From Thermus sp. 2.9 (GTDB lineage Bacteria > Deinococcota > Deinococci > Deinococcales > Thermaceae), in contig NZ_JTJB01000036.1 of the NCBI RefSeq assembly GCF_000794385.1, positions 1-64,000 of the forward strand: a stretch of DNA of 64,000 bases, read 5' to 3'. The translations under genes and the position numbers were made by a program. Positions 54,452-61,734 of the stretch are shown piece after piece. Within the stretch, counting starts at the first letter, position 1; the number at the start of each line of letters is the position of its first letter. The notes under the pieces are model-generated. The model was not told the DNA's origin and searched no databases. It was given only the letters and a program-made list of their open reading frames with translations.

Positions 54452-57310
54452 TTAGAACTTCACGGTGTAGCTCACACGGAAGGCCTTGGCCACGGTGTCC
54501 ACCGTGCCCCCGAAGGGGGAGTTGGCCTGGCCCTGGCGGAGGCGGAAGTAACCGCCCGCCACAGAGAGGTCGTAGTACTTAAGCTCCCCGTAGAGGCCTT
54601 CCACAGAGCCCGAGTTGCTGCCGAAGGAAGCCGTGGGAGCACCCGTGCCACCCGGGCTGGCGAAGAGGCGGTCGCGGTCGTAGGAGAAGGCGTTCTCCCC
54701 AGCGCCCACGGTGATGAGACCCCCCGCACCCTGGGCCACGTTCCAAGCCCCGTAGATGGCCCCCGCCACGGTGAAGCTGAGGCCAGGAGCGAAGAGCTCA
54801 TTCAGGGTGAGCCCAGCCCGGCCGTAGACCTCGCCCGCGCGGGCACCGCCGCCAAAGCGGGTGGAGCGGTAAGCAGCGTCGGCGCTCAAGCTTGGCTTGA
54901 AGGGCAGGGCCAAGGGGTCGGTGCTGAGCCGCACGCCCGCCTTAAGGGCGCTGTAGTCCAGGTTGCCGCCGCCAGTACCATCGTCAAAGTAGTGGAAGCG
55001 GACCCCAGGCTGAGCCTTGATGGGGCCAAGGGCCATGGGCTGGGCGAAGAAGGCGGCCACCTGGAAGTCGTTGTGGTTGCTCACGGTGAAGCGGGTGTAC
55101 TGGGCCACCACGGAAAGCCCCTTGATCAGGGCATCCTCGGCGTCGGCCTTGTGCTCCAAGCGGGCGCCGAAGCTGGAGGAGTAGCGCTGGGTAGGGTTGT
55201 TGAGGAAGTAATCCGAGCCAGAATTCAAGAAGTCCCTCTGGGTACCGCCCGTGCAGCCGAAGGCGGTGGGGCTGGTGGCGTTGTCGCAAGCCCGGTTGAA
55301 GTAGCCCGTGAGGCTGAAGCCGCGGAAGAGGGAAACCTTGGCCGCAAGGCCGAAGGCGATGTCGTTGGTATTGGAGTTGGCAGCGTCGTTGTAGCCCCGG
55401 GCGCTGTCCAGGTAAGCCTCCACCCCCACCGGGCCCACGCTGGCCTTGGCCTCCACGCCGAAGCCCCGGGTGTCGTAGCCGTAGGGGACCGTGGAGATAT
55501 TCTCGCCGTAGTAGTTGGCGTCCTCGTTCTCGGACATGCTGGCCTGGCCGTCGGCGTACTCGGTGTCCACGGCCCGGTAGTTGGCGGAGAGGTTCACGGA
55601 GCCCAGGTTCACCTCGGCCTCGCCGTAGTAGGCCCAGCTGGAGCGGTTCCTGTCAAAGTAGGCGGTGAAGGGTTCGCCGAGGCCCAGGGTCTTGGAGCTC
55701 ACCCAGAGCCCGGAGAGCTTGGCAGGGCCAAGCTCCAGGCTGGCATCGGCCCCAATGGCGGAGCGGATACCCACGTTGAGGGCGTAGTTCAGGCCAAGGC
55801 TTGCGCCCTGGAGGGGCTTGAGCACCGTGCGAATGCCGAAGTAGTTGCCGTTGATGGCAGGCGCTGCGTCCGCCGGAGAGCCCGGCCCCGCCACACCCCC
55901 CACGAGGGTGACTTCAGGGCTAAAGGGCAGGTTGGTGCCCGAGAAGGTGGCCACCACGCCCTGGCGGTAGTGGGCAACACCGCCCTCGGCGTCGTTGGCG
56001 AAGAGGTAGTCGTTGAACTTGAACTTGCTCGCCACCCGGCTATAGGCCACGCTGAAGGGCTGGCCGTCCACCTCACCCTTCACGCTCACCGCATCCAGAC
56101 GCACGGTAGGGGTAGGAACGAGGCTCGTGTCGTAGACCCGCACCCCAAAGGCGGCAGAAGCCTCGCTCACCGCCACACCGGTAGCGGCGGGAGTGTTGTT
56201 CTTCACCCCTAGGGTCAGCGTGGCATTCCCGCGGAAGAGGTTGTCAGCCCCTTCCTCCAAAGCAACCCTGCTAGAAGCGTAAGAGGCACTGCCGAACTGC
56301 CCCGTGGAGAAGACGCTCCCCGGGAAGAGACGGTCCCAGTCAAAGGCCGTGCTACCCTGGGTGAAGTACCGCAAGCCCGCCGTGGCGGTAAGGCTGCCGG
56401 AGATGGAGTACTGCACCTTGGAGAGTTCTTTGAGTTGCCCCTCGAGGCCGGAAACCCGCTCGGTGAGGGCCCCCACCTTCTCGGAAAGCCCCACCAGGTC
56501 AGAGCGGAGGGCGGCGGCGAACTCCTGGACAGCGGCCACGTCCTCCTTGGAGGCAAACTGTTCAACATCAGCCCCCTGGAGGTCGGCCAGGCCCTTCTCC
56601 AGGGCGGTGACCCGGTCCTGAAGGGCCAGCACGTCCTGGTTGAGGAGGACGGCGAGCTCGTTCAGGGCCTGGATGGCCTGGGCGTTGGCCTCCACCTGGG
56701 TTTGAAGGGCGGCCACGTCGCCCTTCACGCCCTCCACGTCCTTGGCCAAGGCGTCCAGTTGCTCGGCCAGCTGCTGGGCCTGGGCCAGGGCGGTGTCGGC
56801 GGCGATGGAGGCGGCCTCCACCCGGTCGGCCAGGTCCTGGAGGGCGGCCTGGTCCATGCCGGGCTCAGGGGCCGGCTGGGCCTTGAGCTCCTCAATCATG
56901 GCCTCGAGGCGGGCGATGTCCTCCTTGGTGGCGGCGCTGTCCTCGAGGGCGGAAACCCGCACGCCCAAGGCGGCGAGCTCAGCGGCGAGCTCCTGCACAG
57001 CGTTCTTCAGGGCCTCCAGGTCCTCGGAGGACATGGCCTCCATGGTGGGGGACTCGCCCTTGGTCTTCAGCTCCTCCTCAATCTGCTGCAGGAGGCGGTA
57101 GATGATGAGGGCGGCCTGGTAGCGGGTGAGCGTTTCGTTCCCCCGGTAGGTGCCGTCAGGGAAGCCCACGATGATGCCCTTGGCCGCTAGGCTCTCCACG
57201 GCCTCCTTGGCCCAGTGCCCAGCGGGCACGTCGGAGAACTGGGCCAGACCGAAGCCCATGGAGAGCACGGTCAAAAGCCCTGCCAGAAGTACCACTAGCC
57301 TTTTCTTCAT
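54452..57310 (-). CDS. slpA: S-layer protein SlpA (SLH domain plus outer-membrane barrel)
   Basis: Main surface protein of Thermus, joining the outer layer to the cell wall. The 952-aa protein has a signal peptide (residues 1-24, KKRLVVLLAGLLTVLSMGFG), an SLH domain (25-80, FSDVPAGHWAKEAVESLAAK and GFPDGTYRGNETLTRYQAAL), about 220 residues of coiled coil (QELAAELAALGVRVSALEDS and similar), then a long region of alternating beta-strands that ends in VSYTVKF. The final Phe is a classic outer-membrane barrel sorting signal. Start at the ATG at 57310, after a 130-nt leader. Two Cys flank CDNATSPTAFGC. Its base and codon use is less extreme than its neighbours. Confidence 0.93.
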   Translation of the reverse strand: MKKRLVVLLAGLLTVLSMGFGLAQFSDVPAGHWAKEAVESLAAKGIIVGFPDGTYRGNETLTRYQAALIIYRLLQQIEEELKTKGESPTMEAMSSEDLEALKNAVQELAAELAALGVRVSALEDSAATKEDIARLEAMIEELKAQPAPEPGMDQAALQDLADRVEAASIAADTALAQAQQLAEQLDALAKDVEGVKGDVAALQTQVEANAQAIQALNELAVLLNQDVLALQDRVTALEKGLADLQGADVEQFASKEDVAAVQEFAAALRSDLVGLSEKVGALTERVSGLEGQLKELSKVQYSISGSLTATAGLRYFTQGSTAFDWDRLFPGSVFSTGQFGSASYASSRVALEEGADNLFRGNATLTLGVKNNTPAATGVAVSEASAAFGVRVYDTSLVPTPTVRLDAVSVKGEVDGQPFSVAYSRVASKFKFNDYLFANDAEGGVAHYRQGVVATFSGTNLPFSPEVTLVGGVAGPGSPADAAPAINGNYFGIRTVLKPLQGASLGLNYALNVGIRSAIGADASLELGPAKLSGLWVSSKTLGLGEPFTAYFDRNRSSWAYYGEAEVNLGSVNLSANYRAVDTEYADGQASMSENEDANYYGENISTVPYGYDTRGFGVEAKASVGPVGVEAYLDSARGYNDAANSNTNDIAFGLAAKVSLFRGFSLTGYFNRACDNATSPTAFGCTGGTQRDFLNSGSDYFLNNPTQRYSSSFGARLEHKADAEDALIKGLSVVAQYTRFTVSNHNDFQVAAFFAQPMALGPIKAQPGVRFHYFDDGTGGGNLDYSALKAGVRLSTDPLALPFKPSLSADAAYRSTRFGGGARAGEVYGRAGLTLNELFAPGLSFTVAGAIYGAWNVAQGAGGLITVGAGENAFSYDRDRLFASPGGTGAPTASFGSNSGSVEGLYGELKYYDLSVAGGYFRLRQGQANSPFGGTVDTVAKAFRVSYTVKF

Positions 57311-57444
57311 ATTCCCGTACACCCCCTTCAGGGTTTTCGGGGAAGGCGGGGCGGGCGAGTTTCCGCGTTTCCTCTCCGAACCGCCTTTCCCCTAGATGCA
57401 GGGCTTAAGCTCTAGAAGAGCCGGTTTTCCCCGCATCCGCAGGT

Positions 57445-57474
57445 ATCATAAAAGCCTCACACAAACCCTGTCAA
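57445..57474 (-). promoter_or_regulatory. slpA promoter
   Basis: On the minus strand perfect -35 TTGACA (57474-57469), 18-bp spacer, -10 TATGAT (57450-57445). The start of transcription near 57438 leaves a leader of about 128 nt. The T. thermophilus slpA gene is known to have a strong promoter and a long leader used in regulation, and this arrangement fits. Confidence 0.82.
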
Positions 57475-57496: not shown

Positions 57497-57502
57497 TATA
57501 CT
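57497..57502 (+). promoter_or_regulatory. glmS promoter -10
   Basis: TATACT on the plus strand, with transcription expected near 57509, ahead of the ribozyme. No convincing -35 at 16-18 bp. It is divergent from the slpA promoter, 47 bp away. Confidence 0.5.
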
Positions 57503-57508
57503 CCCGCG

Positions 57509-57765
57509 AAGGGAGGTGGGAGCCTGGCGTGAAATGGGTCTTGGGAAGGCGGGAAGCGCAGGGGGTTCGGAAGAACCTCACGAGGTGGCGGACCCCGCAA
57601 GGGGATTACCGGCAAGGGCCGGGAAAGATCGAGGGATCCGCGGATGCCGCCCGGGGTGTGCCCGCCCCGCCCGCCTGAGCAAAGCCTTCCGGGAAAGCCG
57701 CCCCCGTGAGGGGGGGACAACCGGGGGGCAGGGCGCAAGGAAGTCGCCTAGGGGGTAAACCAGCC
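57509..57765 (+). ncRNA. glmS ribozyme, Deinococcus-Thermus variant
   Basis: The 280-nt leader of glmS has the conserved core of the glucosamine-6-phosphate-activated self-cleaving ribozyme. AGCGC is at 57555-57559 with the expected cleavage between 57555 and 57556; then a hairpin GGGTTC-GGAA-GAACCT, ACGAGGTGG at 57580-57588, ATCGAG at 57628-57633 and CGGATG at 57641-57646. Between the ACGAGG and ATCGAG blocks, which are only a few nt apart in the usual ribozyme, lies an insertion of about 36 nt with two small hairpins (CCCC-GCAA-GGGG and CCGG-N6-CCGG). Variants with extra stems in the core have been reported in this phylum. 3' boundary approximate. It should lower GlmS when the sugar phosphate is plentiful. 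Confidence 0.82.
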
Positions 57766-57791: not shown

Positions 57792-59606
<1,815 letters not shown>

Positions 59607-60590: not shown

Positions 60591-61734
60591 CAGACTTGAC
60601 CTATATGCGGCTCCTGGAGTAAAGAGGGGGCATGACCCTGCGCGAAGCCCTGTCCCAGATCCCCGACCCCCGGGCCCGCAACCGGCAGTACCCCCTTTGG
60701 GGCCTCCTGGCCCTCATCCTGGTGGCTTTTCTTTCCCGCGTGGACTCCCTGAGGGGCGTGGAACGCTTCGCCCGCGCCAACCCCCACCTCTTGCCCCACC
60801 TGGGCCTGCGCAAGGCCCCAGGCCACACCGCCATCACCCTTCTCCTTCACCGCCTGGATCCTGAAAAGCTCCAAGCGGCCCTCCTCCAGGTCTTCCCCGA
60901 AGCCGACCTTGGGGAAGTCCTGGTGGTAGACGGGAAGCACCTGCGGGGAAGCGGCAAGGGGAAAAGCGCCCAGGTGAAGCTGGTGGAGGTCCTGGCCCTG
61001 CACCTCCATACCACCCTGGCCCAGGCCCGGGCGGAGGGGAGGGAGGACCAAGCCCTTTTGGAGCTCCTGGACCGCCTGGGGGCGGAGGGGCTCAAGGGGA
61101 AGGTGGTGGTGGGGGACGCGGGGTACCTGTACCCGGAGTTAGCGGGGAAGGTGGTGCAAAAAGGGGGGCGTACCTCTTTGTCCTGAAGGCTAACCAGGGG
61201 GAACTTTTGGAGTGGGCCTTGGAGGTGTTCAAGGGCATGGAGGAGAGGCGGCTTCCTGGCGAGACCGAGGCGGTGTGGAATCTGGTGCGGGATGGGGAGG
61301 TGTGGACCTACCGGGTTTGGGCTTCCCCCTACCTGCCGGAAGAGGTGCGGGCCTTCCCTGGGGCCAGGCAGGTGGTGCGGATGGAGCGGGAGGTGAGGCA
61401 CAAGGGGACGGGGGAGGTGCGGCGGACGGTGAGCTACGCCCTCACCAGCTTGGGGCCGGAGGTGGCGGAGGCGAGGCGGCTTGGGGAGCTTCTCCTTTAC
61501 CGGTGGGAGGTAGAGAACCGGTCCTTTTGGGTACGGGACGTTCTCCTCCACGAGGATGCCTGCCAGGTGCGGGGGGTGGGGGCACAGGTCTTGGCGGCCC
61601 TCCGGGCCTTTCTGGTCTCCATGCTTCACCGCCAAGGGGTCAGGGAGAAGAAGGCGGCCTTGGAGGCCTTCTCCTTCAACCCCCTCTCCGCCCTGCGCTT
61701 CCTGGGGCTCTATGCGGTATAGCGGTCAAGTCTG
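60591..61734 (+). mobile_element. ISAs1-like insertion sequence, copy C
   Basis: 1144 bp, same as copy A in the opposite orientation. Ends CAGACTTGACC / GGTCAAGTCTG. A perfect 10-bp target duplication TGCGCCATCC flanks it (60581-60590 and 61735-61744). It interrupts a GAF/HD-GYP gene in the opposite direction. The matching duplication and identity to copy A suggest recent transposition. Confidence 0.95.
60632..61722 (+). CDS. Transposase, ISAs1-like, two overlapping frames (copy C)
   Basis: Same organisation as copy A on the plus strand. Frame 1 runs from the ATG at 60632 to a TGA at 61184-61186. The switch is A5G6 at 61158-61168: slipping back one base on the last GGG gives GCG TAC CTC and continues to the TAG at 61720. 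Full product about 363 aa with catalytic Asp, Asp, Glu. The promoter is TTGACC at 60596-60601, 18 bp, TAAAGA at 60620-60625; ribosome site GGGGG. This copy and A are the best candidates for active elements. Confidence 0.87.

Follow-up and report, generated by a model that had tools for sequence, protein, structure and literature searches.

The glmS leader of Thermus sp. 2.9 as a probable variant glmS ribozyme with additional stems in its core

The glmS leader and its conserved core

The window, i.e., the whole 64,000-nt stretch of Thermus sp. 2.9 contig NZ_JTJB01000036.1 that was analysed, carries on its + strand a glmS coding sequence of 604 aa (57792..59606), which is single copy in the genome. 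Two adjacent ORFs lying 3' of glmS (60632-61722, +) resemble one transposase-like gene with a frame break. An SLH-type porin-like gene (54452-57322) diverges from glmS and is faced by a promoter-like site, TTGACA-18-TATGAT, at 57445-57474 (-). A probable -10 element of the glmS leader promoter, TATACT (57497..57502, +), was picked out from the sequence only, and TATACT also occurs upstream in other Thermus leaders. A generic sigma-70 scan reported no + strand promoter for the leader, only a minus-strand one, and our literature search found no published Thermus glmS leader transcripts.

An earlier, sequence-only reading had proposed that four blocks stand in glmS ribozyme order directly upstream of this gene. 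We confirm all four on the + strand and in that order, namely AGCGC (57555-57559), ACGAGGTGG (57580-57588), ATCGAG (57628-57633) and CGGATG (57641-57646), with the glmS ATG downstream at 57792 on the same strand. The region it had delimited (57509-57765) does contain the ribozyme, although the ribozyme proper is narrower (57547-57736) and ends 55 nt before the ATG. The conserved core, A|GCGC, ACGAGG, AUCGA and GCGGAUG, is thus present in full and in order. Single blocks are not significant, being common in a GC-rich window where ACGAGGWGG alone occurs nine times.

The predicted cleavage site lies between A(-1) and G1 (57555..57556), placed there because AGCGC is homologous to the Rfam glmS consensus, and on this basis the new 5' end that had been predicted, 57556, is correct. 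The 5' strand of the P2.2 pseudoknot (CGC, 57557..57559) pairs with 57640-57642 and is followed by the P1 hairpin (57562..57579), the core block ACGAGGTGG, recognised by sequence and conservation, and the 5' strand of P2 (GGCGG, 57587..57591), whose partner is CCGCC at 57647..57651. Between them, the J2/2.1 joint measures 39 nt (57589-57627) versus about 6 in the RF00234 consensus, leaving about 33 extra nucleotides rather than the 36 or so first counted; the two hairpins reported there are present. These are PX1 (CCCC-GCAA-GGGG, 57593..57604) and PX2 (CCGGC-AAGG-GCCGG, 57609..57622), separated by the linker AUUA (57605..57608; AUAA in most relatives), which is near-invariant across Thermaceae and the neighbouring family f4. 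A second linker, GAAAG (57623..57627), of which AAAG is invariant in our alignment A2, joins PX2 to the block AUCGAG (57628..57633), identified by sequence and conservation as the pocket strand and 5' side of P2.1. The insertion of PX1 and PX2 falls at the P2/P2.1 junction and places them just 5' of the AUCGA pocket strand. The segment UCCGCGGAUG (57637..57646), invariant in alignment A2, supplies the 3' side of P2.1, the 3' strand of P2.2 and the GCGGAUG block. Further downstream are the P3 hairpin (57652..57669; loop GUGCCC, 57658-57663), P4 with its A-rich internal loop together with P4.1 (57684..57729; P4.1 at 57701-57714, closed by a GUGA tetraloop), and the P3.1 pseudoknot 3' strand (GGGCGC, 57731..57736), which pairs with the P3 loop. 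The P4 internal loop (AAA/ACAA) and the GUGA loop follow the Rfam consensus. The double-pseudoknot core (P2, P2.2) is therefore in place, as are P3/P3.1 and P4 with a GNRA loop.

Detection, covariation and the probable helix P0

The Rfam glmS model (RF00234), which the sequence-only reading had named as a check, gave no match at the window, either at the gathering score or at E values up to 10; the scan returned only tRNAs and chance matches, and no separate Deinococcus-Thermus glmS model appeared among those scanned. The RF00234 gathering cut-off, below which the window falls, is 37 bits and represents a detection rule rather than a biochemical trait. Across the phylum, insert-less relatives score 33-49 bits at glmS and insert-bearing ones at most 32, including significant but sub-threshold matches in genomes G007 (31.7 bits, E = 2e-5) and G027 (28.8 bits, E = 8e-5). 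On this gradient, it is the inserts that seem to keep RF00234 from recognising the RNA, and automatic annotation relying on that model misses the ribozyme across the whole Thermus genus. We built a Thermus-free covariance model from 13 Meiothermus and f4-family training sequences, which recovered 57553-57651 at 99 bits (E = 2.2e-21 genome-wide; runner-up 22.6 bits). The ordered, structured combination of blocks is far above chance. A variant-type model likewise gave a single strong match per genome, at glmS, in genera g1-g5 and family f4, except for a duplicated contig in G018.

The single-sequence fold was unremarkable (z-score -1.6), and the minimum-energy fold prefers a shifted P2 register with low P2 and P2.2 probabilities, pseudoknots being outside the folding model. 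We rejected the competing register, GGUGGCG/UGCCGCC, given that GGCGG/CCGCC is paired in 100% of leaders, with 12 compensatory branches, and in 34-51% when slid.

Matches to GlmS were found in 104 of the 111 genomes of the phylum; 93 glmS leaders were fetched, and 64, the window included, were parsed on the core blocks. AGCGCA is present in every one of these 64. Family f1 denotes Thermaceae, including g1 (taken as Thermus) and g4 (Meiothermus), and f5 is Truepera-like. The same RNA lies at glmS in all Thermus genomes searched, in Meiothermus and in f4, so the extra stems, which had rightly been read as a variant, are not peculiar to this sequence. Both PX1 and PX2 occur in all parsed g1, g2, g3, g4 and f4 leaders and in the g5 genome G071. 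Within f3, G007 has both and G005, G006 and G008 have neither; the f2 genomes likewise lack both. The f5 leaders that were read carry both hairpins along with further core changes.

Several departures were seen in individual lineages. In f5 (L183, L179, L185, L191 and others), a P0-like helix is kept, P2 is longer, P2.1 bears an additional hairpin, and the leaders show CUGCGGGCCCCUCC, with no AUG of GCGGAUG. Two g3 leaders (L157, L162) have ACGCGG for ACGAGG and AGCGA for AUCGA, with the helices kept, and single species (L149, L159, L160, L143, L144) have as much as about 110 nt added at the tips of PX1 or PX2. A suspected loss of the ribozyme in G071 was rejected: the RNA is there, its P1 having grown by about 130 nt of AAGCGGTGAAGTGG-like repeats (L212:2840-3170), and an ORF resembling a four-helix bundle lies between the ribozyme and glmS.

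Covariation was counted on a tree of glmS coding sequences from 70 genomes, with five f5 genomes as outgroup, which is independent of the leader. We counted a branch as compensatory if the two sides of a pair both changed along it without loss of pairing. Because loop lengths differ among genera, the MAFFT alignment A1 misregisters P3 and P0 between them, and we used anchored parsing instead, with P2 and P0 anchored on fixed positions and PX1 and PX2 on their linkers. Compensatory branches numbered 32 for P1, 12 for P2, 13 for PX1, 15 for PX2, 18 for P3 and 15 for P3.1 (e.g., GAACCC/GGGUUC in Meiothermus), compared with 0-5 when strands were slid by one or two positions (0-5 for PX1 and 0-1 for PX2). 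The P3 and P3.1 counts are biased upward, since for these two helices the best-fitting partner was taken in each sequence. A pair count on alignment A2 agrees, with 97.8% of cells paired versus 49-57% when slid by one. The three base pairs of P2.2 are possible in all leaders (100% paired) and yet invariant, providing no covariation either way. With 13 and 15 compensatory changes, respectively, the PX1 and PX2 hairpins are real, and their covariation extends over Thermaceae, f4 and one f3 genome. The earlier proposal of a structurally variant glmS ribozyme with two added core hairpins is thereby supported.

That proposal made no mention of a third additional helix, P0, which has 7 bp here and joins RNA upstream of the cleavage site (AGGCGGG, 57547..57553, positions -9 to -3) to the strand directly 3' of P3 (CCCGCCU, 57670..57676, abutting P3). 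It seems, from its position, to clamp the RNA just before the cut. The RF00234 consensus has a 4-nt joint after P3 where the Thermus ribozyme has the 7-nt P0 strand, which leaves no room for P0 in the standard model; in Rfam alignments of f3 members, an unmodelled CCCGAAC-like insertion falls exactly at the place of this strand. With the register fixed, the helix changes to AGCGGA/UCCGCU in g2, ACGGG/CCCGU in g3, UCGGG/CCCGA in f4 and UUCGGG/CCCGAA in G007. Six compensatory branches were counted without, and nine with, the Meiothermus bulge, versus 0-1 for slid partners. P0 is also group-specific, averaging 5.0 bp within genomes versus 3.6 when 3' strands were swapped between groups; in 20,000 permutations over nine groups, a mean as high as that observed never arose. 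Several f2, f3, g4 and f4 members have a weak form of it (2-4 bp), and it is visible by eye in the f5 leaders.

Relatives in Chloroflexota and the glnA-linked copies

Among 400 Chloroflexota genomes, RF00234 matched 125 and the Thermus-type model 28. Those read comprise one set with neither insert nor P0, a second with PX1-CUAA-PX2-GAAAAUCGA and P0, and a third with PX1-PX2-GAACAUCGA, mostly without P0; an Anaerolineales MAG (L063) has PX1, PX2 and P0 all present. The UAA of the PX1/PX2 linker is common to the Chloroflexota CUAA. The occurrence of PX1 and PX2 here shows that the extra stems extend beyond Deinococcus-Thermus. A GlmS scan of viral contigs yielded nothing useful.

In six Chloroflexota genomes (G186, G469, G425, G282, G218, G314), an insert-type copy precedes a type I glutamine synthetase gene, glnA, by 150-500 nt (loci L341, L343, L348, L359, L360, L361; A at position 55). 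The glutamine synthetase call rests on TIGR00653 scores of 521-523 bits for the two genes tested. At the cleavage site, these copies have AGCGGCUG or AGCGACUG instead of AGCGCCUG, and the C4-G pair of P2.2 is broken. In G425 and G469, the copies at glmS have AGCGCC, and some of the genomes with a glnA copy also have a normal copy at glmS. Three more AGCGGC-type Chloroflexota copies (L353, L367, L368) lie away from glnA; two of them, in G362 and G451, are followed by a gene for an Ada-like AraC/methyltransferase protein. We found no report of glnA-linked glmS ribozymes, in a literature search that was incomplete.

These relatives point to joint control, by one RNA class, of glutamine supply (glnA) and glutamine use (glmS). 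A broader proposal stands, in our judgement, at even odds: that PX1, PX2 and the P0 clamp define an unrecognised second class of GlcN6P ribozyme in Deinococcota and Chloroflexota, that a Chloroflexota duplication of it controls glnA, and that AGCGRC as opposed to AGCGCC may mean an altered ligand or lost cleavage.

Proposed mechanism, alternatives and comparison with known systems

The core departs from the Rfam consensus at two places. The C-G pair of P2.1 is a C57630.C57639 mismatch, and residue 5 is A instead of C; both features are invariant in 57 of 57 Thermaceae and f4-family leaders. In f2 and f3, residues 5 and 55 are A/U. Residue 5 and the residue before GCGGAUG covary by clade (C/G, A/C, A/U, A/A), for which standard pairing offers no explanation. 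A triple that takes part in GlcN6P recognition by the B. subtilis ribozyme is formed by the pair C38-G55 (PMC11602151), and we take this pair to be the one that deviates here. The ligand pocket may be built differently from that of the standard type.

We place a probability of roughly 0.92 on a glmS leader ribozyme that is cleaved with GlcN6P, with PX1 and PX2 bracing the pocket, P0 acting as a clamp and RNase J carrying out decay. GlcN6P, the product of GlmS, would bind the pocket formed by AUCGA (57628-57632), GCGGAUG (57640-57646) and the cleavage-site strand, and the RNA would then cleave itself between A57555 and G57556. RNase J would then digest the downstream fragment, which bears a 5'-OH and the glmS coding sequence, in the 5' to 3' direction, and GlmS levels would fall. 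RNase J is the decay enzyme for cleaved glmS mRNA in B. subtilis, and the genome has one clear homologue (TIGR00649, 518 bits). We infer the ligand, the cut at 57555/57556 and the decay route by analogy with the glmS ribozyme family; the roles of the added stems are hypotheses drawn from their placement. PX1 and PX2 probably support the pocket strand by way of the conserved linkers AUAA and GAAAG, as their position and the near-invariance of AUAA/AUUA and GAAAG suggest A-rich packing against the core. P0, lying against P3 along one strand and ending two nucleotides before the scissile bond, plausibly steadies the substrate strand at high growth temperature and plausibly retains the 5' product.

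It could be argued that the junction simply tolerates PX1 and PX2 as neutral inserts that contribute nothing to folding or catalysis, and the drift of their loops, tip expansions of 40-110 nt (G009, G023, G042, G043) and the absence of both hairpins from three of the four f3 genomes and from three f2 genomes would suit such a view. We nevertheless consider it unlikely, because neutral inserts would decay. Every Thermaceae and f4 sequence read has the two hairpins together, as do the f5 leaders that were read and many Chloroflexota; their linkers are conserved, and 28 compensatory branches were counted in total. An equally improbable alternative concerns P0, which might be a chance GC-rich complementarity that does not form: it is almost invariant in Thermus, which alone yields no covariation, requires a bulged C to exceed 3-4 bp in many Meiothermus, spans mostly 3-4 bp in f2/f3, and often reaches just p 0.1-0.3 in single-sequence shuffles of Chloroflexota. 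Against chance stand the fixed register (-3 versus the first nucleotide after P3) with compensatory changes at several positions, the recurrence of the helix at the equivalent position in f5 and in CUAA-type ribozymes of Chloroflexota, at up to 9-10 bp, and the lack of P0 in Chloroflexota ribozymes without inserts, whose mean score equals the null.

Least probable of all, and by a clear step, is a glmS-like RNA that recognises a ligand, whether GlcN6P or another, but has lost cleavage and serves as an ordinary riboswitch. The C.C mismatch and A5, invariant in 57 leaders, could be signs of it, as could the missing Rfam match, and P2.2 mutations in the glmS core strongly reduce cleavage (PMC7125110). 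However, A(-1)GCGC, ACGAGG, AUCGA and GCGGAUG are kept, i.e., conservation extends to the residues near the cleavage chemistry, for which a pure aptamer would have no need. Moreover, C.U replaces the C-G pair in relatives that pass the Rfam model (L175, L176, L180, L173), which makes C.C compatible with family membership.

A self-cleaving ribozyme with added stems would provide a natural test of how a rigid core accommodates two stems beside its ligand pocket. If P0 is real, it contradicts the current view that sequence 5' of the glmS cleavage site is irrelevant, and it predicts a bound 5' product.

Compared with the Firmicutes type described by RF00234 (B. subtilis, B. anthracis, T. tengcongensis), the Thermus ribozyme shares the position 5' of glmS, the cleavage-site strand, ACGAGG, AUCGA and GCGGAUG, as well as P1, P2, P2.1, P2.2, P3, the P3.1 pseudoknot, the A-rich internal loop of P4 and the GUGA loop. 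It differs in the roughly 33 nt with two hairpins in J2/2.1, in P0, in the C.C of P2.1 and in A5. We file it as a variant because its J2/2.1 is 39 nt long and stem-bearing and C57630.C57639 replaces a pair, whereas the Firmicutes type has a short, stemless J2/2.1 and a C-G pair in P2.1. McCown, Roth and Breaker reportedly described, in 2011, additional catalytic-core stems in Deinococcus-Thermus glmS ribozymes, i.e., in the same phylum; the leader is very probably a variant glmS ribozyme of that type. The insert-type ribozymes of Chloroflexota (e.g., L337, L345, L349, L362) resemble it in PX1, a UAA-containing linker, PX2 and GAAAAUCGA, and in P0 for the CUAA type, but their linker is CUAA instead of AUAA, C5/G55 is kept as in Rfam, and P0 is often more AU-rich. 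The RNA in the window would thus be a further member of a variant type already reported, while P0, the spread into Chloroflexota and the glnA-linked copies may be new.
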